The notes under the pieces: generated by a model
The model's input: only the letters and a program-made list of their open reading frames with translations
What the model was told of the DNA's origin: nothing
The model's database searches: none
Program-made: the position numbers and the translations under genes
Shown: positions 7,057 to 64,000 of the stretch, one piece after another
How the letters are laid out: each line of letters starts with the position of its first letter
Numbering within the stretch: position 1 is the stretch's first letter
NCBI GenBank assembly: GCA_037389465.1
Contig: JAZARR010000048.1
Location: forward strand, 434,001-498,000
Length of the DNA: 64,000 bases
Origin: Baylisascaris procyonis
Taxonomy: Eukaryota > Nematoda > Chromadorea > Rhabditida > Ascarididae
Reading direction: 5' to 3'

Positions 7057-7130
7057 CGCTCCCGGGTGGGCTTGAACCACTAACCTTTCGGTTAACAGCC
7101 GAACGCGCTGACCGATTGCGCCACGGAAGC
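7057..7130 (-). tRNA. tRNA-Asn(GTT), first regular unit of the array
   Basis: The 74-base body folds as a cloverleaf on the minus strand: acceptor GCTTCCG against CGGGAGC with one G-U pair, D stem GCGC/GCGC, anticodon stem TTCGG/CCGAA around loop CTGTTAA (anticodon GTT), five-base variable loop, and discriminator G as expected for Asn. The first T-stem pair is A-C instead of G-C. The residues from U8 through the variable loop follow the highly conserved animal tRNA-Asn. Box A (TGGCGCAATCGG) and box B (GGTTCAAGCCC) fit the Pol III consensus. Confidence 0.85.
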
Positions 7131-7659
7131 TCGCGAGTCAGATCTCGTTCTGGAATTTTCTACAGACACTCCGTTATGAGGTTTTCTCAAAAAAGGCTGA
7201 TGATGGGCATTCCTGTCTGCGAAGTTATTCAAAGTCAAATAAAAGAATGCCGCTCCTGGATGGGCTTGAACCACGAACCTTTCGGTTAATAGCCGAACGC
7301 GCTGACCGATTGCGCCACGGAAGCTCGCGAGTCAGATCTCATCTTGAAATTTTCTAAAGATACTCCGTTATGAGGTTTTCTCAAAAAAGGCTGATGATGG
7401 GCATCCCTGCCTTCGAAGTTTTTTAACCTGGAATGAAAAAAACCGCTCCCGGATGGGCTTGAACCACTAACCTTTCGCTCAACAGCCGAACGCGCTAACC
7501 GATTGGGCCACGGAACCCGCGAGTCGGATCTGATCCTGAAATGTTCTGGAGATACTCCGTTATGAGCTTTTCTCAAAAAAGCTGATGATGGGCCTTCCTG
7601 CCTGCAAAGTTTTTCAACGTGAAATAGAAGAATGCCGCTCCTGGCTGGCTTTAACCACG

Positions 7660-7702
<43 letters not shown>

Positions 7703-7860
7703 CGAAGCTCGCGAGTCAGATCTCATCCTGGAATGTTCTACAGATACTCCGTTATGAGCTTTTCTCAAAAAACGCTGATGATGGGCATCCCTGCCTGCGA
7801 AGTTTTTCAACCTGGAATAAAGGAATGCCGCTCCCGGGTGGGCTTGAACCACCAACCTTC

Positions 7861-7899
<39 letters not shown>

Positions 7900-8041
7900 A
7901 GCTCGAGAGTCAGATCTCATCCTGGAATTTTCTACAGATACTCCGTTATGAGGTTTTCTCAAAAAAGGCTGATGATGGGCATTCCTCTCTGCGAAGTTTT
8001 CAACCTGCAATGAAAAAGACCTCTCCCGGACGGGCTTGAAG

Positions 8042-8091
<50 letters not shown>

Positions 8092-8230
8092 AGCTCGGGA
8101 GTCAGATCTCATCCTGAAATGTTCTACAGATACTCCGTTATGTTCTGAGAGGTTTTCTCAAAAAAGACTGATGATGGGAATTCCTGTCTGCGAAGTTTTC
8201 AACCTGCAATGAAAAAGACCTCTCCCGGAC

Positions 8231-8290
<60 letters not shown>

Positions 8291-8429
8291 AGCTCGGGAG
8301 TCAGATCTCATCCTGAAATGTTCTACAGATACTCCGTTATGTTCTGAGAGGTTTTCTCAAAAAAGACTGATGATGGGAATTCCTGTCTGCGAAGTTTTCA
8401 ACCTGCAATGAAAAAGACCTCTCCCGGAC

Positions 8430-8489
<60 letters not shown>

Positions 8490-8628
8490 AGCTCGCGAGA
8501 CAGATCTCATCCTGGAATGTTCTACAGATACTCCGTTATGTTCTGAGAGGTTTTCTCAAAAAAGACTGATGATGGGAATTCCTGTCTGCGAAGTTTTCAA
8601 CCTGCAATGAAAAAGACCTCTCCCGGAC

Positions 8629-8669
<41 letters not shown>

Positions 8670-8815
8670 CAACCGATTGCGCGACGGAAGGTCGAGAGTC
8701 AGATCTCATCCTGGAATTTTCTACAGATACTCGGTTATGAGGTTTTCTCAAAAAAACCTGATGATGGGCATCCTTGCCTGCGAAGTTTTTCAACCTGGAA
8801 TAAAGGAATGCCGCT

Positions 8816-8879
<64 letters not shown>

Positions 8880-9224
8880 CGAAGCTCGCTAGTCAGATCT
8901 CATCATGAAATGTTCTACAGATACTCCGTTATGTTCTGAGAACTTTTCTCAAAAAATACTGATGATGGACATTAATGCCTGCGAAGTTTTTCAACCTGGA
9001 ATGAAAAAAACGGCTCCCGGATGGGCTTGAACCACCAACCTTTCGGCTAACAGCCGAACGCGCTGACCGATTGCGCCACGGAAGCTCGCGAGTCAGATCT
9101 CGTTCTGGAATTTTCTACAGACACTCCGTTATGAGGTTTTCTCAAAAAAGGCTGATGATGGGCATTCCTGTCTGCGAAGTTTTCAACCTGCAATGAAAAA
9201 GACCTCTCCCGGACGGGCTTGAAG

Positions 9225-9274
<50 letters not shown>

Positions 9275-9424
9275 AGCTCGGGAGTCAGATCTCATCCTGA
9301 AATGTTCTGCAGATACTCGGTTATGTTCTGAGAGCTTTTCTCAGAAAAGGCTGATGATGGGCGTCCTTGCCTTCGAAGTTTTTCAACCTGGAATGAAAAA
9401 AACCGCTCCCGGACGGGCTTGAAG

Positions 9425-9474
<50 letters not shown>

Positions 9475-9603
9475 AGCGCGCGAGTCAGATCTCATCCTGG
9501 AATGTTCTACAGATACTCCGTTATGTTCTCAGAGCTTTTTTGAAAAAAGATCGATGATGGACATTCCTGTCTGCGAAGTTTTTCAACCTGGAATGAAAAA
9601 AAC

Positions 9604-9613
9604 CGCTCCCGGA

Positions 9614-9674
<61 letters not shown>

Positions 9675-9677
9675 AGC
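9604..9677 (-). tRNA. tRNA-Asn(GTT), complete body with strong terminator
   Basis: All stems pair, with the second T-stem pair a G-U wobble (CCATC in place of CCACC). A run of seven T on the minus strand starts two bases after the discriminator, so Pol III would stop at once. This unit and its right neighbour form a 387-bp dimer seen again at 11152 and 11539. Confidence 0.85.
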
Positions 9678-9735
9678 TCGCGAGACAGATCTCATCCTGG
9701 AATGTTCTACAGATACTCCGTTATGAGCTTTTCTC

Positions 9736-9741
9736 AAAAAA
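9736..9741 (-). terminator. Spacer T6 run, candidate distal Pol III terminator
   Basis: Six T on the minus strand in the context CAGCGTTTTTTGAG. An equivalent run in CAGCCTTTTTTGAG or CAGTCTTTTTTGAG occurs at the same place in nearly every unit, about 50-65 bases beyond the tRNA 3' end. It would act as the first efficient stop for units without a proximal T-run, and as back-up for the others. Confidence 0.6.
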
Positions 9742-9797
9742 CGCTGATGATGGGCATCCCTGCCTGCGAAGTTTTTCAACCTGGAATAAAGGAATGC

Positions 9798-9801
9798 CGC
9801 T

Positions 9802-9868
<67 letters not shown>

Positions 9869-9871
9869 AGC
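9798..9871 (-). tRNA. tRNA-Asn(GTT), complete body lacking a proximal terminator
   Basis: The cloverleaf is complete, with a fully Watson-Crick T stem (GGTGG/CCACC). The trailer reads GCATTCCTTTATTCC, with only three T in a row. The first run of four or more T is the six-T run at 9736-9741, about 57 bases downstream, so the primary transcript should have a long 3' trailer. Confidence 0.85.
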
Positions 9872-10187
9872 TCGAGAGTCAGATCTCATCCTGGAATTTT
9901 CTACAGATACTCGGTTATGAGGTTTTCTCAAGAAAACCTGATGATGGGCATCCTTGCCTTCGAAGTTTTTCAACCTGGAATCAAAAAAACCTCTCCGGGA
10001 TGGGCTTGAACCACCAACCTTTCGTTTAACAGCCGAACGCGGTAACCCATTGCGCCACGGAACCCGCGAGTCGGATCTGATCCTGAAATGTTCTTCAGAT
10101 ACTCCGTTATGAGCTTTTCTCAAAAAACGCTGATGATGGGCATCCCTGCCTGCGAAGTTTTTCAACCTAGAATAAAGGAATGCCGCT

Positions 10188-10254
<67 letters not shown>

Positions 10255-10984
10255 AGCTCGAAAGTCAGATCTCATCCTGGAATTTTCTACAGATACTCGG
10301 TTATGAGGTTTTCTCAAAAAAACCTGATGATGGGCATCCTTGCCTTCGAAGTTTTTTAACCTAGAATGAAAAAAACCGCTCCCGGATGGGCTTGAACCAC
10401 TAACCTTTCGTTTAACAGCCGAACGCGCTAACCGATTGGGCCACGGAACCCGCGAGTCGGATCTGATCCTGAAATGTTCTGGAGATACTCCGTTAGGAGC
10501 TTTTCTCAAGAAAACCTGATGATGGGCATCCTTGCCTTCGAAGTTTTTCAACCTGGAATCAAAAAAACCTCTCCCGGATGGGCTTGAACCACCAACCTTT
10601 CGTTTAACAGCCGAACGCGCTAACCGATTGGGCCACGGAACCCGCGAGTCGGATCTGATCCTGAAATGTTCTGGAGATACTCCGTTAGGAGCTTTTCTCA
10701 AAAAAGCTGATGATGGGCCTTCCTGCCTGCGAAGTTTTTCAACGTGAAATAGAAGAATGCCGCTCCTGGCTGGCTTTACCACGAACCTTTCGGTTAACAG
10801 CCGAACGCGGTAACCGATTGCGCCACCGAAGCTCGGGAGTCAGACTTCATCCTGAAATGTTCTACAGGTGCTCCGTTATGTTCTGAGAGCTTTTCTCAAA
10901 AAAGACTGATGATGGGCCTTCCTGCCTGCGAAGTTCTTCAACCTGAAATAAAAGAATGCCGCTCCTGGATGGGCTTGAACCACG

Positions 10985-11016
<32 letters not shown>

Positions 11017-11161
11017 CATTGCGCCACGGAACCCGCGAGTCGGATCTGATCCTGAAATGTTCTAGAGATACTCCGTTATGTGCTTTTCTCAGAAAAGGCT
11101 GATAATGGGCCTTCCTGCGTTCGAAGTTTTTCAACCTGGAATGAAAAAAACCGCTCCCGGA

Positions 11162-11222
<61 letters not shown>

Positions 11223-11378
11223 AGCTCGCGAGACAGATCTCATCCTGGAATGTTCTACAGATACTCCGTTATGAGCTTTTCTCAAAAAACGCTGATGATG
11301 GGCATCCCTGCCTGCGAAGTTTTTCAACCTGGAATAAAGGAATGCCGCTCCCGGGTGGGCTTGAACCACCAACCTTTT

Positions 11379-11416
<38 letters not shown>

Positions 11417-11548
11417 AGCTCGAGAGTCAGATCTCATCCTGGAATTTTCTACAGATACTCGGTTATGAGGTTTTCTCAAAAAAACCTGATGATGGGCATC
11501 CTTGCCTTCGAACTTTTTCAACCTGGAATGAAAAAAACCGCTCCCGGA

Positions 11549-11609
<61 letters not shown>

Positions 11610-11740
11610 AGCTCGCGAGACAGATCTCATCCTGGAATGTTCTACAGATACTCCGTTATGAGCTTTTCTCAAGAAACGCTGATGATTGGCATCCCTGCCT
11701 GCGAAGTTTTTCAACCTGGAATAAAGGAATGCCGCTCCCT

Positions 11741-11803
<63 letters not shown>

Positions 11804-11952
11804 AGCTCGAGAGTCAGATCTCATCCTGGAATTTTCTACAGATACTCGGTTATGTTCTGAGAGCTTTTCTCAGAAAAGGCTGATGATGGGCATCCTTGCC
11901 TTCGAAGTTTTTCAACCTGCAATGAAAAAACCGCTCCCGGATGGGCTTGAAT

Positions 11953-12002
<50 letters not shown>

Positions 12003-12160
12003 ACCCCGCGAGTCAGATCTCATCCTGGAATGTTCTACAGATACTCCGTTATGTTCTCAGAGCTTTTTTGAAAAAAGACCGATGATGGACATTCCTGCCT
12101 TCGAAGTTTTTCAACCTGGAATGGAAAAAACCGCTCCCGGATGGGTTTGAACCACCAAAT

Positions 12161-12192
<32 letters not shown>

Positions 12193-12543
12193 ACGGCACG
12201 GAAGCCGGCGAGTCAGATCTCGTCTTGGAATTTTCTACAGATACTCCGTTATGAGGTTTTCTCAAAAAACGCTGACGATGGGCATTCCTGCCTTCGAAGT
12301 TTTTCACCCTGGAATGAAAAAAACGGCTCCCGGATGGGCTTGAACCACGAACCTTTCGGTTAACAGCCGAAAACGCTAAACCGATTGCGCCACGGAAGCT
12401 CGAGAGTCAGATCTCATCCTGAAGTGTTCTGGAGATACTCCGTTATGAGCTTTTTTCAAAAAAGGTGATGATGGGCGTCCCTGCCTGGGAAGTTTTTCAA
12501 CCTGGAATAAAGGAATGCCGCTCCTGGACGGGCTTGAACCACG

Positions 12544-12589
<46 letters not shown>

Positions 12590-12923
12590 AGCTCGGGAGT
12601 CAGATCTGATCCTGAAATGTTCTAGAGATACTCGGTTATGTTCTGAGAGCTTTTCTCAGAAAAGGCTGATGATGGGCATCCTTGCCTTCGAAGTTTTTCA
12701 ACTTGGAATGAAAAAAACCGCTCCCGGATGGGCTTGAACCACCAACTTTCGGCTAACAGCCGAACGCGCCAACCAATTGCGCCACCGAAGCTCGATAGTC
12801 AGATCTCATGCTGAAATGTTCCACAGATACTCGGTCATGAAGTTTTCTCAAAAACGGCTGATGATGGGCATCGTTGCCTTCGAAGTGTTTCAACCTGGAA
12901 TGAAAAAAAAAACGGCTCCCGGA

Positions 12924-12966
<43 letters not shown>

Positions 12967-13140
12967 GACCGATTGCGCCGCCGAAGCTCGATAGTCAGAT
13001 CTCATGCTGAAATGTTCTACAGATACTGCGTTATGTTCTGAGAACTTTCCTCAAAAAATACTGATGATGGACATTAATGCCTGCGAAGTTTTTCAAAACG
13101 GAATGAAAAAAATCGCTCCCGGATGGGTTAGAACCACCAT

Positions 13141-13174
<34 letters not shown>

Positions 13175-13319
13175 ATGCCACGGAAGCCCGCGAGTCAGAT
13201 CTCATCTTGGAATTTTCTACAGATACTAGGTTATGAGGTTCTCTCAAAAAAGCTGATGATGGGCATCCCTGCCTGGGACGTTTTTCAACCTGAAATAAGA
13301 GAATGCCGCTCGTGGATGT

Positions 13320-13377
<58 letters not shown>

Positions 13378-13509
13378 AGCCCTCGAGTCGGGTCTCATCC
13401 TGAAGTGTTCTACAGATACTCCGTTATGAGCTTTTCTCAAAAAAGGCTGATGATGGGCCTTCCTGCGTGCGAATTTTTTCAACCTGAAAGGAAGAAATGC
13501 CGCCCCGGA

Positions 13510-13562
<53 letters not shown>

Positions 13563-13903
13563 ACCACGGAAGCTCGAGAGTCAAATCTCATCCTGAGATG
13601 TTCTACAGGTACTCCGTTATGTTCTGGGAGCTTTTCTCAAAAAAGACTGATGATGGGCCTTCCTGCCTGTGAAGTTTTTCAACCTGAGATAAAAGAATGC
13701 CGCTCCTGGATGGGCTTGAACCGCCAACCTTTCGGTTAACGGCCGAACGCGCTAACCGATTGCGCCACGGAAGCTCGCTAGTCAGGTCTCATCCTGAAAT
13801 CTTCTGCAGATACTCCGTTATGAGCTTTTCTCAAAAACCGCTGATGATGGACAACCCTGCCTGCGAAGTTTTTCAACCTGGAATGAAAAAAACCGCTCCT
13901 GGA

Positions 13904-13939
<36 letters not shown>

Positions 13940-14334
13940 TAGCGCTACCCGATTGCGCCACGGAAGCTCTGGAGGCAGATCTCATCCTGAAATGTTCTAC
14001 AGATACTCCGTTATGTTCTGAGAGCCTTTCTCAGAAAAGGCTGATGATGGGCATCATTGCCTTCGAAGTTTTTCAACCTGGAATGAAAAAAACCGCTCCC
14101 GGAAGGGATTGAACCACCAACCCTTCGGTTAACAGCGGAACGCGGTAACCGATTGCGCCACGGAAGCTCGAGAGTCATATCTCATCCTGAAATGTTCTAC
14201 AGGTACCCCGTTATGTTCTGGGAGCTTTTCTCAAAAAAGACTGATGATGGGCCTTCCTGCCTGCGAAGTTTTTCAACCTGAAACAAAAGAATGCCGCTCC
14301 TTGATGGGCTTGAACCACCAACCTTTCGGTTAAT

Positions 14335-14365
<31 letters not shown>

Positions 14366-14504
14366 AGCTCGAGAGTCAGATCTCATCCTGAAATGTTCCA
14401 CAGGTGCTCCGTTATGTTCTGAGAGCTTTCTCAAAAAAGACTGGTGATGGGCCCTCCTGCCTGCGAAGTTTTTCAACCTGAAATAAAAGAACGCCGCTCC
14501 TGGA

Positions 14505-14550
<46 letters not shown>

Positions 14551-14887
14551 GGATTGCGCCACGGAAGCTCGAGAGTCAAATCTCATCCTGAAATGTTCTA
14601 CAGGTACTCCGTTATGTTCTGGGAGCTTTTCTCAAAAAAGACTGATGATGGGCCTTCCTGCCTGCGAAGTTTTTCAACCTGAAATAAAAGAATGCCGCTC
14701 CTGGATGGGCTTGAACCACCAACCTTTCGGTTAACGGCCGAACGCGCTAACCGATTGCGGCACGGAAGCTCGCTATTCAGATCTCATCCTGAAATGTTCT
14801 GCAGATACTCCGTTATGAGTTTTCTCAAAAACCGCTGATGATGGGCATCCCTGCCTGCGAAGTTTTTCAACCTGGAATGAAAAAGAC

Positions 14888-14900
14888 CGCTCCCGGATTT

Positions 14901-14931
<31 letters not shown>

Positions 14932-14961
14932 CTACGGGGTAACCGATTTCGCCACGGAAGC
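14888..14961 (-). pseudogene. tRNA-Asn-like pseudogene next to the retrotransposon
   Basis: The loop CTGTTAA is kept, but the 5' anticodon strand and the D arm are changed (antisense CAGCCCTACGGGGTAACCGA), so the anticodon stem and D stem cannot form. The T-stem 3' side is also altered (GGATTTGC). Near-identical defective copies lie at 29732-29805 and 31689-31762. The retrotransposon is inserted 30-35 bases upstream of this body's 5' end. Confidence 0.8.
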
Positions 14962-14990
14962 TCGAGAGTCAGATCTCATCCTGGAATTTT

Positions 14991-14995
14991 CTACA
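14991..14995. repeat. Target-site duplication, left copy (CTACA)
   Basis: CTACA precedes the element and is repeated at 23152-23156. Uninterrupted copies of the same repeat segment (TTTTCTACAGATACTTGG at 29831 and 31788) have CTACA once, which proves the 5-bp duplication. Confidence 0.95.
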
Positions 14996-16140
14996 TGTAT
15001 TGACCACCCTTTTTGTTGGTGGGTGTGTGTAGTGTGTATGTGTGAAGGTGGTCAATAATTAGATTATGTATGTTAGTTTGACCCCAAAGATTCGTGAACA
15101 AACAATAGAAAACGAATAAAACAAAGGAAAATTACTGTTTAACAATTGGCCTACGTTACTGTCGCTGTCCGATGTCGATTGAACTGCTGATCGCTTCTCG
15201 GTGCCAGGTTTAGTCAGTTCCGAGTTGACGCGTGGCGTTCCTGATCCACCGTCGACTTGCCTCTTTGCCACTGGTGTGGATCCAACCACAATCTCCGCTG
15301 GAGTCGACGATTCTGTCCACTGAGCTCCCTTCTGTGACCCGTCTACTTGTCGCGACACTCCGATTTTAATGACGCCTTCCGCTCGCCAATGACCACCTTT
15401 TGGGATTCTGTCAGTTACCCAAGAATACTTCACGCTGAGGTGGCTGCTCTTAGAATACCAATATCAGATGCTGTTGGTGCAACCGCCTTGTGCACCTTTC
15501 CACTGCTGTGTGAGCCACGCGTCAAACTTGGGTAATTAAACCTTTATTCGCATTTAAACAATCAAAACGCGACGCAGAAACATTTACATATCAACAGTAA
15601 AGGATAATATGATAGTAGGTTAACATGTGATTAAGTAAACTCATATATGGTTATAAGACAAGTACGTAATGTTATATCTTCTTATAACCCGACGGAAAGA
15701 ATACACATACTTATTCATAAGCCAAAACGTTAAGCGCACAACACCGATTCACTTTACACATTGTACAGTTACCGAACCTTTGGGGTTTGTTTATATAGCC
15801 TTCCTGCTGACACTTTCTTGAAGCTTATGGTCCGCCCCTTCTTTGTGCCGTTAGTTGAGTTGACAATTAACATTGTTCATGGGATGACTTGATGCGCATG
15901 TCCTCATGCACCTTTTGAGAAACAAAGCTCTCCCATGCCTTGTGAGCTTCCCACGCGCGTTGCCCTCTCTTTGAGCTCAACACTTCTGAGTGGCCGACTA
16001 ACAATCTCACTTTCATAATCCATTTGCACTACTTCGTTTCTTATAACTTTCTCACGTCCGCAAAACTAACTTTTGAAGCTTTAATCATCTTTCACTTTAT
16101 TTATTTCTACGCACTCATTCACTCGCGCGAAGCCGCGACA
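14996..16140 (-). repeat. 3' LTR of the BEL/Pao element
   Basis: On the minus strand it begins TGTCGCGGCTTCGCGCGAG and ends GGTCAATACA. It aligns with the other LTR over its full 1,145 bp with a constant offset of 7011. The only difference I saw is T at 15677 against A at 22688. Confidence 0.96.
15543..15548 (-). promoter_or_regulatory. Poly(A) signal candidate in the 3' LTR
   Basis: AATAAA on the minus strand (context GCGAATAAAGG) about 245 bases downstream of the TATA position in the same LTR. This order fits a U3-R-U5 layout. Confidence 0.5.
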
Positions 16141-16152
16141 CTCCCACCGGCC
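16141..16152 (-). other. Polypurine-tract candidate
   Basis: The minus strand directly before the 3' LTR reads GGCCGGTGGGAG. It is only moderately purine-rich, but its position against the LTR is that expected of the plus-strand primer. Confidence 0.55.
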
Positions 16153-16230
16153 CACATGAGAAAGCTTCCTGGGAAGTTCCTTGTACCGTTAACTTCGAAG
16201 TGATGAGGATTGTAGCAACTTCTGATTACT

Positions 16231-19200
16231 TCACTTTTTCTGCACGGTGCGTGACCTCAATACCCAATGATTTGCATCTTCGAGCTGCGACTGTTGGACT
16301 TGGGGGGCGTTACCTTTTTCCTCTTCCCTCTGCTCACATGCCCTCACCTCTAGCGGGTAAAGGTAATTCAAAGGTCTCTCCAAATTTCCGCCAGTGGGTG
16401 TTTTTAGGACGACCTTGCGTATTTGGTTATCTTTACTTCGGTTAATGGATATGATCATTCCTGTTTTCCACTGACCTCTTGGTACCCCTTCCTCATAAAT
16501 GATTACCATTTCTCCAACTTGCGGTTCTCTTGTTATCACGTTTCGCGGTCCAGTGTGTTCCATTCTTTGCTGCTCTCTTAGGCTTAGCAAGTACTCATCC
16601 CGCCACCGCTTCCAGAAATCCTCAAGGACGCGCAGACCTATTTTATATTTTTCTTGCAAAGCGATCATTTCCGATTCGGGTTTGTAACTTGGGTCTGACA
16701 CCTCGTTCTGGTCCTCCGAACCAGCGATCAATAGGTTTATATGTGGGCTAACGAAATCGATCGGTCTTATTGCTTTACCTTCGTGATTGTTTTCATAGAC
16801 ATAAGTGATGGGTCTGCTATTTAAGACTGCTTCAATCTCACACAGTAAAGTCTGTAACTCCTCGACTTTCAAAATCTTTCTTCCTAGGGCTTTGCTGAGT
16901 GACCGCTTAACTAAACCAATCATTCTCTCATAAGCTCCGCCCTTCCATGGTGCGTGACTAGTGATAAAGTCCCATCGTAAGCCGTTTTCACTTCCATATT
17001 GGGCCAACCCCTCTTCAAGTTCCTTTTTCTGGTGTTCACTCACCAAAATTTTTCCCGCCGACGTGAATGTAGTGGCGTTATCCGACAGAATTCTTTCGGG
17101 TACTCCTCTTCGAGCTACAAACCTTCGAAAAGTTTGAATAAACTGTTCTGCTGTTAGACTGCTAACTGTGTCTAGGTGGACGGCTCTAGTAACCAAACAC
17201 GTCCATAGACATCCCCAGATCTTCGTTGTCTGACCTTTATCTTTGACTAACATGGGGCCGAAATAGTCTACTCCGGTATGTTGAAAGGGAAACGCTCGTC
17301 TTGTTCTATACGCCGGTAAAGAAGGCATGGGGGGTAGCGCGAATGGGCCGCCTTCATGCTTTTTGCAAGTCAGACATCTTCTGAGCACTCTTTTTACTAC
17401 TGCTCGACCTTTCGGGATCCAAAACCGCTCTCTTACATCGCACAACGTTTTTTGCACCCCTTGATGAAAGTTTTTCTTGTGAGCTTGTTCTATGATCAGT
17501 TCTGTGACTTTATGTTTGGATGGCAGTAAAATGGGCCACTTCGTTTGGGCCAGGAGGTCTTCGTGCTCGTATCTCCCTTTACATCTTAGTAATCCGCCCA
17601 TCTCTACCACCCCTAGCTGCTTCCTTAATTGATGCGGTTTGTCGTGTTGCAATGCCTCTTTTAGTTCATGGAATTGTTTATTTTGCATGATGTCCATGAT
17701 TTTCATTTCCGCATATTCTAGTTCCTCCATACTTAACCCTGACTGTTGCCGTCGAGTCCCCTTTCTCATTTCTATCCACCTGAGGACATATCCTATTACC
17801 CCTTTCAGCTTCCTCCACGTGCTGACTCGGGCCGCCACTCTTTCTAACCAATCTTCCTCCTTTTCCTGATCGTGCTGTAGTGTGGTTAGTGTTGCTACTA
17901 CGCTGCTGGTCATATCCTGCTCTTGGACCTCTCCCTGCAATTTTTGATCATCGCTTAAAGGCCAGTGCGTTTCACTCTTTACTAACCATTCCGGGCCCTT
18001 CCACCAAATGTTGCTGTTTGCTAAGCTTTTAGGGGTTGCACCTCTCGACGCAAGGTCAGCCGGGTTTTCTCTACCTCCGACGTGTCTGTACTCAATCCCG
18101 TAGTGCTTGTTTAGTTCTTGTACACGGTTTGCTACGAATACCGGTAACGCTCTATTACTCATTATCCAAGCTAGAGCACATTTTGAATCGCTCCACAGTA
18201 CTTTTTTCTCAATGGCCACTTTCAACTGTCTTTCCACATATACTAATGCTCTCACTCCGATAACGCATGCCATCAGTTCCAGCCTGGGTATGGAGATGTC
18301 TCTTAAAGGGCATAGTCGCGTCTTCGAGAACACTAAGTGACTCTCAGCCTTACTGTCAACTTTGCTACGTAGGTAGATCGCCGCAGCGAAAGCGTGCTGC
18401 GAAGCGTCTACAAATGCATGCAGCTGTAACCTTTTGCTGTCACTCCTAACAACTCTTCGATCGATTACAAACGTGGGGTATTCCATCCAGTTCATTACTA
18501 TGTTGGTCCAGTTCACCTGATGTTCTGGTCTCAGTATTTCATCCCATTGGTATCCTTCTTTCCATAGTGTTTGAAAAAGGAGTTTTCCTTTTAGAAGCAC
18601 TGGCGATATCAGTCCTAAGGGGTCAAAATTTGCGGAAAGGTGTGAAAGGACTTTTCTTTTTGTTAGTGCTGCACCCTCGTTTTCATCTCTGTTTACGAGC
18701 CTTACGGTCAGGGTATCCTCTTGCCTATCCCACCCTAATCCAAGCACGTTTGTAATGTCTTCCTGCATTAAGTCCGCTTCTTGAAACTGGGTGACAACGG
18801 ACTTGTCATTGGAGGCCCACTGCCTCAGGTTCATGGACGCTTTATCAAATATTGCTTTCGCCATGTGGTAGTGTTGCACAGCTTCCTCTGAGGTTTCGGC
18901 ACTTAAAATAACATTGTCTACGTATGTGTTTTCTTTAATCTGCTCGGTTAGTCCTCTGAATCTCTGCACTTTCGCCTTATCCTCTTTTTCTGCTTCCTTA
19001 GCTACTTTGTCCAAATGGAACCTTAACGTTGCTCCAAGGAGGAATGGGCTGGCTACTACGCCGAACGCAACTCTTGTAAAGCGATAGGTCTTCAAATTGT
19101 CGTTGTTTAATCCTTTCTCTGGCCGATCTAGCCACAAGAACCTAGTTACATCTCGTTCTGTTTTCTTGAGAGACAGTTGAAGAAATGCTTTTTCTACGTC

Positions 19201-21954
19201 TGCTATCACTATTATTTTTGGAAGACGGAATCTCAACAAAATCCCCCCTAGATCGGGTAACAGTGCTGGTCCTGAATAGAGACACTCGTTTAAACTTTTT
19301 TCGCGCTTACTCGCTTTTGCTGAGGCGTCAAACACTATTCTCAGTTTGGTTGTACTTTTCGATGGGGTTATAACTGGCTGATGCGGAACGTACCTAACCG
19401 GCCCATCTGGCTTGCTTCCTCTAGCTACTTCTTCAATTATCCCCAGCCGCTCTTGCTCTCGCAGAGCTTGGTCATACTTTGACAACAACTCCGGGTCTCC
19501 ATGCAATCGTTTCAGCAGTGACTTGAGACGACCGAGGCTGAGTCCAAAATTATTTTCAAGCTCAATTTCTTCATATTTCCATGGCCAACAGACTTGGTAC
19601 CGACCGTCGATAAATTCAACTGTCTTATCGAAACATTCCAGTGCCCGGTCGTTTTCTTGATCTTTGGATTGTTCGTTTACCCCAATACTTTCAAGCTTCC
19701 AAAATTTCTCAACCTCTGCCCACTGGTCCTCTGTACCGCTAGCACCTCCGACGACGTTCACCCCACAGTAGGTATGGATCTCTTTCTCTTTTTCAAGCCG
19801 TCCTCCTATCATAGATCCTACCTTCGTCGATATACGGTACAAGTTATTCGCGAGTTTTTGAGGTGCGCCACTACCCATCAGTTCCCAATAAAAATCCGAT
19901 CCTATAAGAATCCCTGGGGCCACTATCAGCTCTTGTCCCAAATCTTCTCCCTCTTTCTCTTGTTTGAGCGGTTTCCGACAGGTTAATTCCCTAACTAACC
20001 TCGGGACAACGTTCACTTCTATAACCTGCGTCTTCCCCTTCTCGAGACAAAGTCCAACTTCTACCAACTGGGATTCCAACTTCTTTGCCCGTTTGGAAGC
20101 GAAGGTGTCAAGCGAAATAACCTCTGATGTAATAGGACTCAGCTTGAGCTGCTTTGCCATCGATGTTGTAATAAAGGATCGCTGCGAACCGCTATCAAAC
20201 AGTGCGTAAGTCTCCAGTATAGGGCTCCTCTCATCTTTTGGATTATATATATCTACTCGAATAGTAGGAAGGTACACTTTAGTATCGCGAGCGACTAGGT
20301 TTCTGCACTCTCCCTCGACGATTTCCTTGAACTCCTTATTTGTGGCCATTTGTGTGGGGGAGGTCACAGCATTGGCTTGAGCCCGCTCCTGCTCAACTAC
20401 CACGGCATTGGTTTGAAATGTCACCTGTGGATTTGGTGAAGTTCTAGGTGGACGCTGACTAATTGTCTTCAGTCCTTCACTTGCGGGCTCCTCGTTGGAA
20501 CCCCCCTCTAATTGTACTACTGACCTAGAAGCCCACTCCGGCTGCTGCATTGTGCCTGATTCCCTCTGTTGCCAGTTGGTATTGGGTCTGCCATTTGGGT
20601 TGATTGCTTGATCGTGTTCGTTTGGTCTCATTCGCGCTTGGTTATTCATTTGCATTGTTGGACTCCGCCACGATAAATTAACCCTCTCTCTCCGTGGACA
20701 AAGTGCACTGTGATGACTACCTCGACAATAGAAGCAAGGTTTAGTGAATTTACAATTCCTGCTTTTGTGACCTTCTCGCAGACATCTAAAACATAACTTG
20801 AGATCTGTGATGCGTTGTTCTCGGTCAGTAATCCTTCTATATCTCAAGCACTCATCCGCAAAATGGGCCTGCGCACATAACGCACAACCTTTCTCAGTAT
20901 AATTTTTCGCGGCTGTGAAGGCCGTTGCTACGCTTGTTCCGTTTCGCGGAAATTCCGCGTGTGACGTTCTCCTTTCACTGTCTTTTATGCTTGCTATCTC
21001 TTCCTTCCTCTTCATATAACAGTCTAGCGCACCCTTTACCATCTCCATATCCCATTCTTGTTCTACCTTATCCCTCAACATCTCTTCCAGAATGGAGGGA
21101 GGGAGTTTTTGCAGAACCGATAGTACTGATGAGGGGTTGTCGAGTGGTTCTTTAAGAGCCCTCAACTGTTTGCAAACCCTAGACAAGGCCTCCCCAAATC
21201 TCTTCATATCGCTTAACTTGTCCGAACAAGCCGGTAACATTTGCAGTGTTCGGTATAGGTGCCTCCTTACGATAACTGGATTACCAAACTTTTCTGCTAG
21301 GAGGTCTTTAGCTTCTTGGTAACTTTCATTGGTAATGGGTAGCCCCGCGATAGCTTCTTTCGCATTCCCATGTAAACAACTCGCTAGATGTGTCATTTTT
21401 ATCACTGGCGGAATTGGTTGCTCATCTACCACCGCTGCAAAGGAATCCCAAAATTCTCTCCATTCTAGGGGGTCGCCATGGAATTGGGGGAGAGTTGCTC
21501 GGGGCAATTCTGTTTTCCATCCCTTTTCTTCTTGTTTAGCTTCTAGAAGCGGCAATGTTTTATCTGCTAAGTCTAATTGTGCGAGCTTGCACTTCAGAGT
21601 AGCTACTGCCTCATCTGCCTTATCAACTACTTCCAGGAAGCTGTCTTCGGCCTCACACTCTTTCTCATACCGCTCACTCTCCTTTTGTTGCTTCTCTCCA
21701 GTTAGACCTATCAGGAGCTCTCTCCACGCGGTATGGCTCTTATTTATCTTTTCTACATCCGTTTCTATTCGCATAAGGTCCTCTGTAACGCGCGACCTTA
21801 TAACCATTCTTTCCTCTCCAGTCTTAGGCTGCTCACTGTAATCAGGCAATTCGTCCAAGTACTTCTGAAGCCTTCCCTTGGCCAGCGTAAGCTGCTTTCG
21901 CAGACCAGCGGAAGACATATTTTCATTTATCTCTCCTACAGCAATTAAAGCCAA
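16231..21954 (-). CDS. BEL/Pao Gag-Pol polyprotein, 1,907 residues
   Basis: One uninterrupted frame encodes the capsid and enzymes for reverse transcription and integration in cytoplasmic particles. From N to C: a charged helical region (about 20-145), DUF1759-like Gag (150-320), three Cys-His knuckles (C357-C369, C388-C401, C407-C419), aspartic protease with DSGS (D587), reverse transcriptase with ADVEKAF (D919) and YVDN (D1013, with N at the usual second Asp), Pao-type connection, RNase H (D1183, E1226, D1256, D1300), integrase zinc finger (H1492, H1497, C1527, C1530), integrase core (D1563, D1625, E1676) and a DUF5641-like C-terminus (1780-1868). The start lies about 52 bases after the 5' LTR; M13 (21918) is an alternative start. 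No frameshift or stop breaks Gag from Pol. I judge it coding-competent; YVDN is the one catalytic oddity. Confidence 0.95.
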   Translation of the reverse strand: MALIAVGEINENMSSAGLRKQLTLAKGRLQKYLDELPDYSEQPKTGEERMVIRSRVTEDLMRIETDVEKINKSHTAWRELLIGLTGEKQQKESERYEKECEAEDSFLEVVDKADEAVATLKCKLAQLDLADKTLPLLEAKQEEKGWKTELPRATLPQFHGDPLEWREFWDSFAAVVDEQPIPPVIKMTHLASCLHGNAKEAIAGLPITNESYQEAKDLLAEKFGNPVIVRRHLYRTLQMLPACSDKLSDMKRFGEALSRVCKQLRALKEPLDNPSSVLSVLQKLPPSILEEMLRDKVEQEWDMEMVKGALDCYMKRKEEIASIKDSERRTSHAEFPRNGTSVATAFTAAKNYTEKGCALCAQAHFADECLRYRRITDREQRITDLKLCFRCLREGHKSRNCKFTKPCFYCRGSHHSALCPRRERVNLSWRSPTMQMNNQARMRPNEHDQAINPNGRPNTNWQQRESGTMQQPEWASRSVVQLEGGSNEEPASEGLKTISQRPPRTSPNPQVTFQTNAVVVEQERAQANAVTSPTQMATNKEFKEIVEGECRNLVARDTKVYLPTIRVDIYNPKDERSPILETYALFDSGSQRSFITTSMAKQLKLSPITSEVISLDTFASKRAKKLESQLVEVGLCLEKGKTQVIEVNVVPRLVRELTCRKPLKQEKEGEDLGQELIVAPGILIGSDFYWELMGSGAPQKLANNLYRISTKVGSMIGGRLEKEKEIHTYCGVNVVGGASGTEDQWAEVEKFWKLESIGVNEQSKDQENDRALECFDKTVEFIDGRYQVCWPWKYEEIELENNFGLSLGRLKSLLKRLHGDPELLSKYDQALREQERLGIIEEVARGSKPDGPVRYVPHQPVITPSKSTTKLRIVFDASAKASKREKSLNECLYSGPALLPDLGGILLRFRLPKIIVIADVEKAFLQLSLKKTERDVTRFLWLDRPEKGLNNDNLKTYRFTRVAFGVVASPFLLGATLRFHLDKVAKEAEKEDKAKVQRFRGLTEQIKENTYVDNVILSAETSEEAVQHYHMAKAIFDKASMNLRQWASNDKSVVTQFQEADLMQEDITNVLGLGWDRQEDTLTVRLVNRDENEGAALTKRKVLSHLSANFDPLGLISPVLLKGKLLFQTLWKEGYQWDEILRPEHQVNWTNIVMNWMEYPTFVIDRRVVRSDSKRLQLHAFVDASQHAFAAAIYLRSKVDSKAESHLVFSKTRLCPLRDISIPRLELMACVIGVRALVYVERQLKVAIEKKVLWSDSKCALAWIMSNRALPVFVANRVQELNKHYGIEYRHVGGRENPADLASRGATPKSLANSNIWWKGPEWLVKSETHWPLSDDQKLQGEVQEQDMTSSVVATLTTLQHDQEKEEDWLERVAARVSTWRKLKGVIGYVLRWIEMRKGTRRQQSGLSMEELEYAEMKIMDIMQNKQFHELKEALQHDKPHQLRKQLGVVEMGGLLRCKGRYEHEDLLAQTKWPILLPSKHKVTELIIEQAHKKNFHQGVQKTLCDVRERFWIPKGRAVVKRVLRRCLTCKKHEGGPFALPPMPSLPAYRTRRAFPFQHTGVDYFGPMLVKDKGQTTKIWGCLWTCLVTRAVHLDTVSSLTAEQFIQTFRRFVARRGVPERILSDNATTFTSAGKILVSEHQKKELEEGLAQYGSENGLRWDFITSHAPWKGGAYERMIGLVKRSLSKALGRKILKVEELQTLLCEIEAVLNSRPITYVYENNHEGKAIRPIDFVSPHINLLIAGSEDQNEVSDPSYKPESEMIALQEKYKIGLRVLEDFWKRWRDEYLLSLREQQRMEHTGPRNVITREPQVGEMVIIYEEGVPRGQWKTGMIISINRSKDNQIRKVVLKTPTGGNLERPLNYLYPLEVRACEQREEEKGNAPQVQQSQLEDANHWVLRSRTVQKK

Positions 21955-21988
21955 ATTAGAGTGATTGTTAAAGGCCGACTCAGTAATG

Positions 21989-22006
21989 TCCCGGCTCGTG
22001 GCACCA
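21989..22006 (-). other. Primer-binding site of the retrotransposon
   Basis: The minus strand directly after the 5' LTR reads TGGTGCCACGAGCCGGGA. It begins with TGG, the complement of tRNA CCA, with no gap to the LTR. The implied primer tRNA ends ...CTCGTGGCACCA with an A discriminator; I could not assign it to a known tRNA. It does not match the tRNA-Asn of the array. Confidence 0.75.
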
Positions 22007-23151
22007 TGTATTGACCACCCTTTTTGTTGGTGGGTGTGTGTAGTGTGTATGTGTGAAGGTGGTCAATAATTAGATTATGTATGTTAGTTTGACCCCAAAG
22101 ATTCGTGAACAAACAATAGAAAACGAATAAAACAAAGGAAAATTACTGTTTAACAATTGGCCTACGTTACTGTCGCTGTCCGATGTCGATTGAACTGCTG
22201 ATCGCTTCTCGGTGCCAGGTTTAGTCAGTTCCGAGTTGACGCGTGGCGTTCCTGATCCACCGTCGACTTGCCTCTTTGCCACTGGTGTGGATCCAACCAC
22301 AATCTCCGCTGGAGTCGACGATTCTGTCCACTGAGCTCCCTTCTGTGACCCGTCTACTTGTCGCGACACTCCGATTTTAATGACGCCTTCCGCTCGCCAA
22401 TGACCACCTTTTGGGATTCTGTCAGTTACCCAAGAATACTTCACGCTGAGGTGGCTGCTCTTAGAATACCAATATCAGATGCTGTTGGTGCAACCGCCTT
22501 GTGCACCTTTCCACTGCTGTGTGAGCCACGCGTCAAACTTGGGTAATTAAACCTTTATTCGCATTTAAACAATCAAAACGCGACGCAGAAACATTTACAT
22601 ATCAACAGTAAAGGATAATATGATAGTAGGTTAACATGTGATTAAGTAAACTCATATATGGTTATAAGACAAGTACGTAATGTTATAACTTCTTATAACC
22701 CGACGGAAAGAATACACATACTTATTCATAAGCCAAAACGTTAAGCGCACAACACCGATTCACTTTACACATTGTACAGTTACCGAACCTTTGGGGTTTG
22801 TTTATATAGCCTTCCTGCTGACACTTTCTTGAAGCTTATGGTCCGCCCCTTCTTTGTGCCGTTAGTTGAGTTGACAATTAACATTGTTCATGGGATGACT
22901 TGATGCGCATGTCCTCATGCACCTTTTGAGAAACAAAGCTCTCCCATGCCTTGTGAGCTTCCCACGCGCGTTGCCCTCTCTTTGAGCTCAACACTTCTGA
23001 GTGGCCGACTAACAATCTCACTTTCATAATCCATTTGCACTACTTCGTTTCTTATAACTTTCTCACGTCCGCAAAACTAACTTTTGAAGCTTTAATCATC
23101 TTTCACTTTATTTATTTCTACGCACTCATTCACTCGCGCGAAGCCGCGACA
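22007..23151 (-). repeat. 5' LTR of the BEL/Pao element (promoter LTR)
   Basis: Same ends and length as the 3' LTR; it lies upstream of Gag-Pol on the minus strand. A TATA-like motif lies about 345 bases into the LTR and a poly(A) signal about 250 bases after it, so U3 is roughly 370 bases, with R and U5 after that; these limits are inferred. Confidence 0.96.
22801..22808 (-). promoter_or_regulatory. TATA-like box in the 5' LTR
   Basis: TATATAAA on the minus strand (context GGCTATATAAACAAACC), about 345 bases inside the LTR. The identical motif in the 3' LTR is at 15790-15797. It would set the start of the retrotransposon transcript near 22770. Confidence 0.6.
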
Positions 23152-23156
23152 CTACA
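23152..23156. repeat. Target-site duplication, right copy (CTACA)
   Basis: CTACA follows the terminal CA-complement end of the element and continues into GATACTTGGTTATGAGG of the array spacer. Five-base duplications are usual for BEL/Pao elements. Confidence 0.95.
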
Positions 23157-29744: not shown

Positions 29745-29775
<31 letters not shown>

Positions 29776-29937
29776 CTACGGGGTAACCGATTTCGCCACG
29801 GAAGCTCGAGAGTCAGATCTCATCCTGGAATTTTCTACAGATACTTGGTTATGAGGTTTTCTCAAAAAAACCTGATGATGGGCATCCTTGCCTTCGAAGT
29901 TTTTCAACCTGGAATGAAAAAGCCGCTCCCGGATGGT

Positions 29938-30508: not shown

Positions 30509-30547
30509 CGCTCCCGGATGGGCTTGAACCACCAACCTTTCGGTTAG

Positions 30548-30579
<32 letters not shown>

Positions 30580-38753: not shown

Positions 38754-38792
38754 CGCTCCCGTTTGGGCTTGAGCCACCAACTTTTCGGTTAT

Positions 38793-38824
<32 letters not shown>

Positions 38825-46013: not shown

Positions 46014-46052
46014 CGCTCCTGGATGGGCTTGAACCACCAACTTTTCGGTTAT

Positions 46053-46084
<32 letters not shown>

Positions 46085-46087
46085 AGC
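46014..46087 (-). tRNA. tRNA-Asn body with Ile anticodon GAT
   Basis: The minus-strand loop CTGATAA gives anticodon GAT. The D, anticodon and T stems pair, and the acceptor has a C6-A67 mismatch (antisense GCTCCTGG). The variable loop is AAGTT. The trailer contains four T. Position 35 is a main identity base for asparaginyl-tRNA synthetase, so normal Asn charging should be lost. Confidence 0.72.
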
Positions 46088-47185: not shown

Positions 47186-47259
47186 CGCTCCCGGATGGGC
47201 TTGAACCACCAACCTTTCGGCTATCAGCCGAACGCGCTAACCGATTGCGTCACGGAAGG
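47186..47259 (-). pseudogene. tRNA-Asn-like unit with GAT anticodon, altered box A
   Basis: The loop is CTGATAG, giving GAT with position 38 changed. The first acceptor base is C (antisense GGAAGGC) and G10 in box A is changed to A (antisense GCGTCACGG). The two changes make transcription and 5' processing doubtful. Position 36228 and 38398 share the flank and acceptor changes but keep GTT. Confidence 0.72.
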
Positions 47260-47975: not shown

Positions 47976-48014
47976 CGCTCCCGTGTGGGCTTGAACCACC
48001 AACTTTTCGGTTAT

Positions 48015-48046
<32 letters not shown>

Positions 48047-48049
48047 AGC
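47976..48049 (-). tRNA. tRNA-Asn body with Ile anticodon GAT, nearly intact
   Basis: Anticodon loop CTGATAA in a body whose acceptor, D and anticodon stems are complete; only the outermost T-stem pair is lost (CCACA opposite GGTGG). The trailer GCATTGTATTATTCC has no T4, so the stop would be the spacer T6. Of the four GAT units this has the best folded body. Confidence 0.75.
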
Positions 48050-61317: not shown

Positions 61318-61384
<67 letters not shown>

Positions 61385-61526
61385 AGCTCAAGAGTCAGAT
61401 CTCATCCTGGAATTTTCTACAGATACTCGGTTGTGAGGTTTTCTCAAAAAACCTGATGATGGGCATCCTTGCCTTCGAAGTTTTTCAACCTGAAATAAAA
61501 GAATGCCGCTCCCGTTTGGGCTTGAG

Positions 61527-61577
<51 letters not shown>

Positions 61578-61704
61578 AGCTCGCGAGTCAGATCTCATCC
61601 TGGAATTTTCTACAGATACTCCGTTATGAGGTTTTCTCAAAAAAGGCTGATGATGGGCATCCCTGCCTGCGAAGTTTTTCAGCCTGAAATAATAGAATGC
61701 CGCT

Positions 61705-61771
<67 letters not shown>

Positions 61772-61898
61772 AGCCCGAGAGTCATATCTCATCCTCAAAT
61801 GTTCTACAGATACTCCGTTATGAGGTTTTCTCAAAAAAGGGTGATGATGGGCATCCCTGCCTGCGAAGTTTTTCAGCCTGGAATAATAGAATGCCGCT

Positions 61899-61965
<67 letters not shown>

Positions 61966-62130
61966 AGCTCGAGAGTCAGATCTCATCCTGAAATGTTCTA
62001 CAGATACTCCGTTATGTTCTGAGAGGTTTTCTCAAAAACCGCTGATGATGGGCATCCCTGCCTGCGAAGTTTTTCAACCTGAAATAAAAGAATGCCGCTC
62101 CCGTTTGGGCTTGAGCCACCAACCTTTCGC

Positions 62131-62162
<32 letters not shown>

Positions 62163-62297
62163 TGGAAGCTCGCGAGTCAGATCTCATCCTGGAATTTTCT
62201 ACAGATACTCCGTTATGAGGTTTTCTCAAAAAAGGTGATGATGGGCATCCCTGCCTGCGAAGTTTTTCAACCTGGAATGAAAAAGACCGCTCCCGGA

Positions 62298-62358
<61 letters not shown>

Positions 62359-62488
62359 AGCTCGCGAGTCAGATCTCATCCTGGAATTTTCTACAGATAC
62401 TCCGTTATGAGGTTTTCTCAAAAAAGGCTGATGATGGGCATCCCTGCCTGCGAAGTTTTTCAACCTGGAATAATATAATGCCGCTCCC

Positions 62489-62551
<63 letters not shown>

Positions 62552-62681
62552 AGCCTCGAGTCAGATCTCATCCTGAAATGTTCTACAGATACTCTGTTAT
62601 GAGGTTTTCTCAAAAAAGGCTGATGATGGGCATTCCTGCCTGGGAAGTTTTTCAACCTGGAATGAAAAAGCCGCTCCCGGA

Positions 62682-62742
<61 letters not shown>

Positions 62743-62880
62743 CGCTCGGGAGTCAGATCTCATCCTGAAATGTTCTACAGATACTCCGTTATGTTCTCTG
62801 AGCTTTTGTCAAGAAAGACCGATGATGGACATTCCTGCCTGCGAAGTTTTTCAACCTGGAATGAAAAAAACCGCTCCCGA

Positions 62881-62941
<61 letters not shown>

Positions 62942-62944
62942 AGC
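57791..62944 (-). repeat. Higher-order repeat: 17-unit block of 3.33 kb
   Basis: Units 57828 to 59579 repeat as 61159 to 62908 at a constant shift of 3329-3331 bp. Shared marks include CCCGAGAGTCATATCTCATC flanks, the GGGTGATGATGG spacer, the CCCGTTTGGGCTT T-arm defect and GGACGCTCGGG acceptor defect. Similarity weakens after 59780/63109. Confidence 0.85.
58564..58637 (-). tRNA. tRNA-Asn(GTT), complete body in a duplicated 3.33-kb block
   Basis: Fully paired CCACC-class cloverleaf. The trailer GCATTCTATTATTCC has no T4, so termination would rely on the spacer T6. The unit recurs at 61895-61968, and the left neighbours (58213, 58407) recur at 61544 and 61738, offset 3331. Confidence 0.86.
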
Positions 62945-63100
62945 TCGGGAGTCAGATCTCATCCTGAAATGTTCTGCAGATACTCCGTTATGTTCTCTGA
63001 GCTTTTCTCAAAAAAGACTGATGATGGGCCTCCCTGCCTGCGAAGTTTTTCACCCTGAAATAAATGAACGCCGCTCCTGGATGGGTTTGAACCAGCAACT

Positions 63101-63139
<39 letters not shown>

Positions 63140-63292
63140 CGAAGCTCGCGAGTGAGATCTCATCCTGGAATTTTCTGCAGATACTCCGTTATGAGTTTTT
63201 CTCAAAAAAGGCTGATGATGGGCATCCCTGCCTGGGAAGTTTTTCAACCTGGAATGAAAAAACCGCTCCCGGATGGGCTTGAACCACCAACT

Positions 63293-63334
<42 letters not shown>

Positions 63335-63699
63335 AGCTCGGGAGTCAGATCTCATCCTGAAATGTTCTACAGATACTCCGTTATGTTCTCTGAGCTTTTC
63401 TCAAAAGAGACTGATGATGGGCCTCCCTGCCTGTGAAGTTTTTCAACCTTTAATGAAAAAAACCCCTCCCGGATGGGATTGAACCACCAACTTTTCGGTC
63501 AACAGCCGAACGCGCTAACCGATTGCGGCACGGAAGCTCAAGAGTCATATCTCATCCTCAAGTGTTCTACAGATACTCCGTTATGTTCTGAGAGGTTTTC
63601 TCAAAAACCGCTGATGATGGGCATCCCTGCCTGCGAAGTTTTTCAACCTGAAATAAAAGAATGCCGCTCCCGTTTGGGCTTGAGGCACCAACCTTTCGT

Positions 63700-63735
<36 letters not shown>

Positions 63736-63858
63736 AGCTCGCGAGTCAGATCTCATCCTGGAATGTTGTACAGATACTCCGTTATGAGGTTTTCTCAAAA
63801 AAGGCTGATGATGGGCATCCCTGCCTGCGAAGTTTTTCAGCCTGGAATAACAGAATGC

Positions 63859-63871
63859 CGCTCCCGGGTGC

Positions 63872-63923
<52 letters not shown>

Positions 63924-63932
63924 GACGGAAGC
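63859..63932 (-). tRNA. tRNA-Asn(GTT)-type, last body in the window
   Basis: Anticodon arm and acceptor are intact. Base 9 in box A is changed to C (antisense GCGCGACGG) and a T-loop/T-stem junction base is changed (GGTGCGCTTG). The next unit's body would start near 64058, outside the window. Confidence 0.75.
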
Positions 63933-64000
63933 TCGAGAGTCAGATCTCATCCTGAAATGTTCTACAGATAATCCGTTATGTTCTGAGAGCTTTGTCAAGA

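Follow-up and report, generated by a model that had tools for sequence, protein, structure and literature searches.

A satellite-like tandem array of tRNA-Asn(GTT) genes in the nematode Baylisascaris procyonis, probably a working gene battery

Introduction

The stretch of DNA analysed here, referred to throughout as the window, comprises 64,000 nucleotides of the nematode Baylisascaris procyonis (NCBI GenBank assembly GCA_037389465.1, contig JAZARR010000048.1, hereafter C48, positions 434001-498000; other contigs are named in the same way), and about 49 kb of it consist of tandemly repeated units that each carry one tRNA-Asn body on the minus strand. Judged from the sequence, this array is probably a working battery of tRNA-Asn(GUU) genes, perhaps the main source of this tRNA, with satellite-like turnover and many decaying copies. 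An earlier reading made from the bare letters (the sequence-only reading) had offered four functions for the array, namely a source of tRNA-Asn, a source of tRNA fragments, a chromatin domain bound by TFIIIC and a selfish satellite. The gene source is the best supported of these, because searches of the genome (272,845,182 bases in 293 contigs) confirmed no dispersed tRNA-Asn gene, the tRNA bodies are less variable than the spacers between them, and near terminators are present in most units; the only observation to touch the TFIIIC domain is the conservation of the promoter boxes. The further step, that the complete nuclear tRNA-Asn(GUU) supply of an animal is carried by satellite-like tandem arrays without any stand-alone gene, so that a fast-turning satellite would be an essential gene family, is a tentative one, with a little less than an even chance of being right.

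Extent and composition of the array

A search of the minus strand with the modal tRNA body (nhmmer) found 249 full-length tRNA-Asn bodies in the window, with 5′ ends running from 63932 down to 7130, which is exactly the number given in the sequence-only reading. ARAGORN, run over both strands, made 228 tRNA calls, and all 228 lie on the minus strand, as had been claimed. Rfam gave 243 matches at gathering score for the 249 copies; among the matches listed, at least 150 are to RF00005 on the minus strand, the best of them at 68.4 bits. That score is reached by the modal 74-nt body, which is found in 22 exact copies in the window (for instance at 9798-9871, minus strand), while five first-order Markov resamples of positions 23201-64000 yielded no ARAGORN tRNA at all.

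The units are spaced 190-210 bp apart, with modes at 192-194 and 199-201 bp, and contain one tRNA body each. Tandem Repeats Finder covers them with two of its three rows (7057-14995, period 193, and 23170-63993, period 194). The array starts at position 7057 and is divided into a left block of 41 units (7057-14990) and a right block with 208 units in the window (23157-64000), both on the minus strand and both recovered by ARAGORN, Tandem Repeats Finder and nhmmer. The span of 7057-64000 previously assigned to the array needs amendment: the tandem repeats are there, but 14996-23151 is a long terminal repeat (LTR) retrotransposon, and the array continues for another 17 kb beyond the window edge at 64000, to contig position C48:515320. 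The whole of it contains 336 full-length copies (nhmmer) in about 74 kb including the insert (C48:441058-515320), the last copy being weak (36 bits) and 422 bp away from its neighbour. ARAGORN called no tRNA in the first 7 kb of the window, in the 10 kb before it or in 90 kb from contig position 518001. A decayed copy of the body lies just outside the left edge at 6615-6661 (minus strand, nhmmer 17.6 bits), followed further out by a weak body-like fragment at 6251-6286 (minus strand, 9.3 bits) that is possibly a chance match; past the right edge nhmmer found no decayed copy, and the only BLAST match there is of 18 bases (E 0.28).

The anticodon GTT is present in 229 of the 249 window copies, so the description of the array as tRNA-Asn(GTT) throughout holds for most units but not for the remaining ones, which read ATT (14), GAT (4) or GCT (2). 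Position 73, the discriminator base, has a role in tRNA-Asn identity as G73, and this base is found in 242/249 copies. The GAT copies lie at 38754-38827, 46014-46087, 47186-47259 and 47976-48049 of the window and the GCT copies at 30509-30582 and 31881-31954; five of these six are still called tRNA-Ile or tRNA-Ser by ARAGORN, and they could misread codons if expressed.

A run of four or more T (T4+) stands within 30 nt of the 3′ end in 173/249 window copies, which puts a figure on the T-run stop that the sequence-only reading had described as usual. Among the 76 units without such a near terminator, 68 carry a T-run later in the spacer and eight have neither. For the whole main array, the corresponding counts are 238/336 within 30 nt and 325/336 within 60 nt, at a median distance of 6 nt.

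Other tRNA arrays in the genome

The main array is one of several in this genome, where a first loose pass gave 18,002 tRNA candidates, of which 63 were scored. A second tRNA-Asn array lies on the same contig in the opposite orientation (C48:707902-742539), with a spacing of 215-230 bp in the 3 kb that were read, and pattern searches placed matches of the same types at C49:78170-89616. These two share an odd edge copy (C48:742513 and C49:78170) and may thus represent one locus, either duplicated or present as two haplotypes. At C270:224001-228500 lies a relic of the main family with 18 damaged copies, three of them called by ARAGORN; several of its copies have extra bases in the D arm. Two arrays of tRNA-Lys(TTT), both with a 293-bp period, lie at 19.6-46.9 kb of C45 (96 copies by nhmmer, 94 by ARAGORN) and at 1606.4-1616.1 kb of C183 (36 and 34, with one Arg call among the 34). 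Finally, an intron-bearing Tyr-like array with a spacing of 253 bp occupies C228:5606104-5638000 (80 exact pattern matches); we take it to be tRNA-Tyr (GTA) from the loop sequence, the isotype being presumed from tRNA numbering rather than called by a program. Its dispersed relatives on C211, at C228:5029479 and on C229 have introns that differ from those of the array.

Near terminators are not a general property of such arrays. In the second Asn array, T4+ is found within 30 nt in 0/13 copies and within 60 nt in 8/13, and in the two Lys arrays within 60 nt in 0/96 and 0/36, while T4 follows the body at 3 and 5 nt in two dispersed Lys genes that were examined. Among the five arrays checked, near terminators are restricted to the main Asn array and its relic on C270. 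Of those checked, only the main array both looks intact and has its terminators placed as in single genes.

No unit with several different tRNA genes was seen, the Asn and Lys arrays examined having one gene per unit. A tRNA-derived SINE (short interspersed element) was considered and rejected, as the spacer occurs only in tandem, on C48 and C270 (at least 59 matches), with no dispersed copies seen. A search for other RNA in the spacer gave only sub-threshold Rfam matches (881-base stretch), and an exact spacer word had no match in genome and viral contigs.

Variation of bodies and spacers

In the main array, diversity is 0.063 in the body and 0.130 in the spacer (Mann-Whitney p=0.001), a spacer-to-body ratio of 2.06 with a block bootstrap range of 1.87-2.27. 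The same direction is seen in the second Asn array (0.077 and 0.209, 12 units) and in the Lys arrays (0.026 and 0.113; 0.012 and 0.115), so that bodies are less variable than spacers in all four arrays measured. The spacers themselves show no kinship in BLAST searches (E 1e-3), neither between the second and the main Asn array nor between the Lys arrays and both Asn arrays. More specifically, variants carried by more than eight copies of the main array are depleted in the body (19/108, vs 66/194 in the spacer; p=0.002), also when only distinct units are counted (17/108 vs 59/194, p=0.005), and the depletion persists at a threshold of five copies (p=0.015).

Search for stand-alone tRNA-Asn genes

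Genome-wide searches for a pattern combining the Asn anticodon loop and the T-loop found 11 sites in the G57 form (reversed-pattern control: 3). Ten of them are in or at the edge of the arrays on C48 and C49, and the other is a stray on C227 that is not tRNA-Asn-like by eye. The A57 form gave 89 forward and 289 reverse matches (control: 1); the forward ones are fully accounted for by the second C48 array (81) and the C270 relic (8), and 251 of the reverse ones lie in the main array. The D-loop variant of the second array had 41 reverse matches (control: 5), three in the main array and 38 elsewhere, with one on C49 among the matches listed; a subtype defined by D-loop and anticodon had nine (control: 0), of which seven are on C49, one on C209 and one on C210. 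Patterns varied at position 32/38, at position 52 or by a 4-nt variable loop matched 20, 24 and 4 times outside the C48 and C49 arrays (controls: 36, 18 and 3), and none of these matches is tRNA-Asn-like by eye in the 26-27 letters shown.

As positive controls, equivalent patterns did find dispersed genes of other isotypes: the Lys pattern has dispersed sites on C95, C152, C162 and C177 among the matches listed, those on C152 and C177 being intact Lys bodies when read, and the Tyr-like pattern has dispersed sites on C211, C228 and C229. With the patterns above, no dispersed tRNA-Asn gene was confirmed in the 273-Mb genome, where a gene that departs from the patterns or is unassembled would escape.

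Retrotransposon insertion, array layout and flanking gene

The two blocks of the array are separated by an 8.2-kb BEL/Pao LTR retrotransposon on the minus strand (14996-23151), which sits within one unit and is identified by its Pfam domains and a 5-bp target duplication. Its LTRs (14996-16140 and 22007-23151, minus strand) differ by one mismatch in an alignment of 1149 bases, and between them runs a single open reading frame of 1907 codons (16231-21954, minus strand). Searched in five pieces, this frame gave Pfam matches above the cut-off to DUF1759, DUF1758, Peptidase_A17 and DUF5641, and below it to RVT_1, rve and Asp_protease_2; named matches of a 400-aa piece include Gnathostoma and Anisakis at 35-44% identity. 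The duplicated CTACA flanks the element at 14991-14995 and 23152-23156. When the flanks are joined, they match the units at 29760-29919 and 31717-31876 perfectly over 160 bases; the element thus entered a unit of which unfilled duplicates are still present, and with its nearly identical LTRs it looks like a young insertion.

Among the 249 units of the window there are 220 distinct unit sequences and 135 distinct bodies. Near-identical runs of at least three units recur 21 times, including 13 consecutive units at 99.6% with a lag of 39 units and ten units at 99.7% with a lag of ten. Such block duplications fit unequal exchange or a similar process of block duplication. A higher-order repeat of fixed period was rejected, as mean identity in the right block stays at 0.890-0.907 over lags 1-40 and only block duplications are seen. 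Divergence from the consensus is highest at the left array edge (0.106, vs 0.055-0.091 in the other bins); raised divergence at the edges is the usual picture for satellites.

The left flank of the window carries exons of apn-1, an AP endonuclease gene (3-3972, plus strand, PF01261) with nematode matches, the best named ones being Acrobeloides (68%), Dracunculus (67%), Thelazia (66%) and Cylicocyclus (65%). Within the 17 best-scoring matches, all 14 with an organism name are nematodes. A 23-row tree, built from the window sequence and 22 chosen matches, does not group the window sequence with a supported clade of four strongylid species.

Interpretation and alternative explanations

On the favoured reading, nuclear tRNA-Asn(GUU) genes transcribed by RNA polymerase III would be lined up in tandem as a battery, in which each unit of roughly 195 bp holds one body with internal A and B boxes, mostly a short terminator, and a spacer. 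Block duplications within the array and the insertion of a BEL/Pao element are shown by the sequence, as is a body that varies about half as much as the spacer. Selection on the body may be frequent enough for some of the copies to stay functional while the others degenerate, and the array may supply most or all of the cytosolic tRNA-Asn, because no confirmed dispersed gene was found. Part of the copies indeed combine a cloverleaf with GTT and G73, as would be predicted for functional tRNA-Asn(GUU) genes.

A considerable number of observations weigh against this reading. Fully paired stems (21 pairs) are found in 57/249 copies, a further 94 having one mismatch. Under strict criteria, which ask for twelve universal tRNA positions, GTT, G73 and full pairing, 52/249 copies pass, 30 of these with T4+ within 30 nt; if one mismatch is allowed, the counts rise to 120 and 71. 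Compensatory changes were not seen, with 4873 of 5229 cells paired vs 4870.5 (sd 3.0) when columns are shuffled between copies, and covariation was therefore rejected as proof of tRNA function, the pairing being no better than in the shuffles. The decayed C270 relic keeps near T-runs in 17/18 copies, so a T-run alone is no proof of use. Regarding variation, body and spacer carry rare variants at equal frequency, the contrast between rare and common variants fails to reach significance when the threshold is set at 1-3 copies, and body and spacer show no difference in how many minor alleles a site has (p=0.23). The main body ranks fifth of 194 for low variability among circular 74-column stretches, the least variable stretch beginning 15 columns upstream, so that the conserved part lies displaced to the side of the 5′ flank; the Lys bodies rank tenth and eighth of 293. 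Mean minor frequencies of the 3′ strands of the T-stem (0.126) and acceptor (0.071) are close to that of the spacer (0.084), which, together with the missing compensatory change, argues against strong selection on the mature tRNA. Selection would rather be weak and at the level of the array, preserving enough good copies among many bad ones. As to stand-alone genes, the 38 reverse A57 matches outside the main array were placed only in part: they are presumably the same as the 38 matches of the D-loop variant outside it, and the placed reverse matches of second-array type are eight on C49 in addition to those on C209 and C210. The latter two (C209:100080 and C210:99174) lie outside the known arrays and may be tRNA or chance, about two matches being expected for 14 fixed letters.

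Many of these points would also be expected of an inert or selfish satellite, in which a tRNA-Asn gene was caught up in tandem amplification and is now mostly silent, the low variation of the body dating from its recent origin or resulting from conversion between copies. The diversity of bodies, the small share of fully paired ones, the lack of compensatory change, the block duplications and the decayed relic on C270 are all consistent with it, and so are the Lys arrays, which lack near terminators though dispersed Lys genes with terminators exist. However, a silent satellite does not readily account for bodies that are less variable than spacers in arrays whose spacers are mutually unrelated, or for near terminators in most units of the main array, and it leaves no confirmed dispersed gene to do the work of tRNA-Asn; this explanation is accordingly held to be rather unlikely, if a serious one. 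A battery restricted to certain stages, feeding oocytes or early embryos and silent later, as has been proposed for zebrafish clusters, is suggested only by analogy with zebrafish (PMC11417395) and with the Arabidopsis SYY cluster (PMC12308677). It would need isolated Asn genes for later stages, of which none was confirmed, and is improbable.

Two further explanations have very little probability. If the array were a chromatin or boundary domain bound by TFIIIC, the A and B boxes would matter and the tRNA product would not; mean minor frequencies are indeed low in the A box (0.021) and B box (0.027), but the anticodon arm (0.021) and the 5′ strand of the acceptor (0.016) are equally conserved, which is more than a function of the boxes needs, making such a domain highly improbable. 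Tandem repeats are error-prone in assembly, and an assembly artefact might be suspected for this reason. Against this stand the 220 distinct sequences among the 249 units, the position of the array within a contig of 1.69 Mb, where it is flanked on either side by stretches without tRNA calls, and the retrotransposon, which with its own target duplication and the empty duplicates of its unit serves as an anchor; an artefact is the least probable explanation of all. If the array were the only source of tRNA-Asn, an essential gene family would be under satellite dynamics, like rDNA, and the catalogued unit variants would make it possible to test copy number, silencing and the selection on individual copies.

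Comparison with known systems

Tandem tRNA arrays have been described in other organisms, and repetitive tRNA genes are often filtered from high-confidence sets, a practice for which the GtRNAdb filter is criticised in passages of PMC11417395. In the same passages, zebrafish tRNAs of the egg and early embryo come from highly repetitive regions and late ones from isolated genes; zebrafish also has isolated genes, scattered genome-wide, which are used later, whereas no isolated Asn gene was confirmed here. The SYY cluster of Arabidopsis (PMC12308677) is silent in the majority of tissues, with activity in root tips. It resembles the array in that tRNA genes have been duplicated in tandem and include pseudogene copies; in that plant they have been kept and are expressed under certain conditions. 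It differs in its mixed Ser-Tyr-Tyr units, with 54 clustered tRNA-Tyr genes in addition to 16 dispersed ones (PMC12308677). In Entamoeba histolytica, nearly every tRNA gene belongs to one of 25 array units with up to five tRNA genes each and short tandem repeats between the genes, and gene conversion or unequal exchange is proposed for the spread of variants (passages of PMC2652664). Some single-gene array units exist in Entamoeba as well. The tandem arrangement is shared, whereas the units here have a single gene each, and Lys and Tyr-like genes also occur in dispersed form.

The closest likeness in build is with another nematode, Nippostrongylus brasiliensis, for which passages of PMC5765664 (Eccles 2018) describe tRNA VeCTRs, namely a 200-bp tRNA-Trp unit repeated about 150 times and a tRNA-Ser gene repeated 90 times with an 80-bp spacer: very long tandem arrays of a complex unit of about 200 bp, made of one conserved tRNA gene and a spacer. 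The kind of array is therefore already known, and the view that hundreds of copies of one isoacceptor in an array are out of the ordinary has to be tempered by this precedent, though the array itself is real. In contrast to Trp and Ser, the isotypes here are Asn, Lys and Tyr-like, and the main array has 336 copies; furthermore, the apn-1 tree does not group the worm studied here with the supported clade of four strongylid species. Those passages discuss neither function nor the absence of dispersed genes. Titles and the beginnings of abstracts, in a coverage that leaves out most subscription journals, brought up PMC5765664 as the only account of nematode tRNA arrays, and no report of an animal tRNA-Asn depending on tandem arrays was found in this partly covered literature. 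What appears new is the number and the isotypes of arrays in one genome, with evidence that tRNA-Asn may depend on them, as well as the lower variation of bodies than of spacers in four arrays and the restriction of near terminators, among five arrays checked, to the main Asn array and its relic. A single genome thereby adds Asn, Lys and a Tyr-like isotype to the tRNA arrays of nematodes, which are of Trp and Ser in Nippostrongylus.

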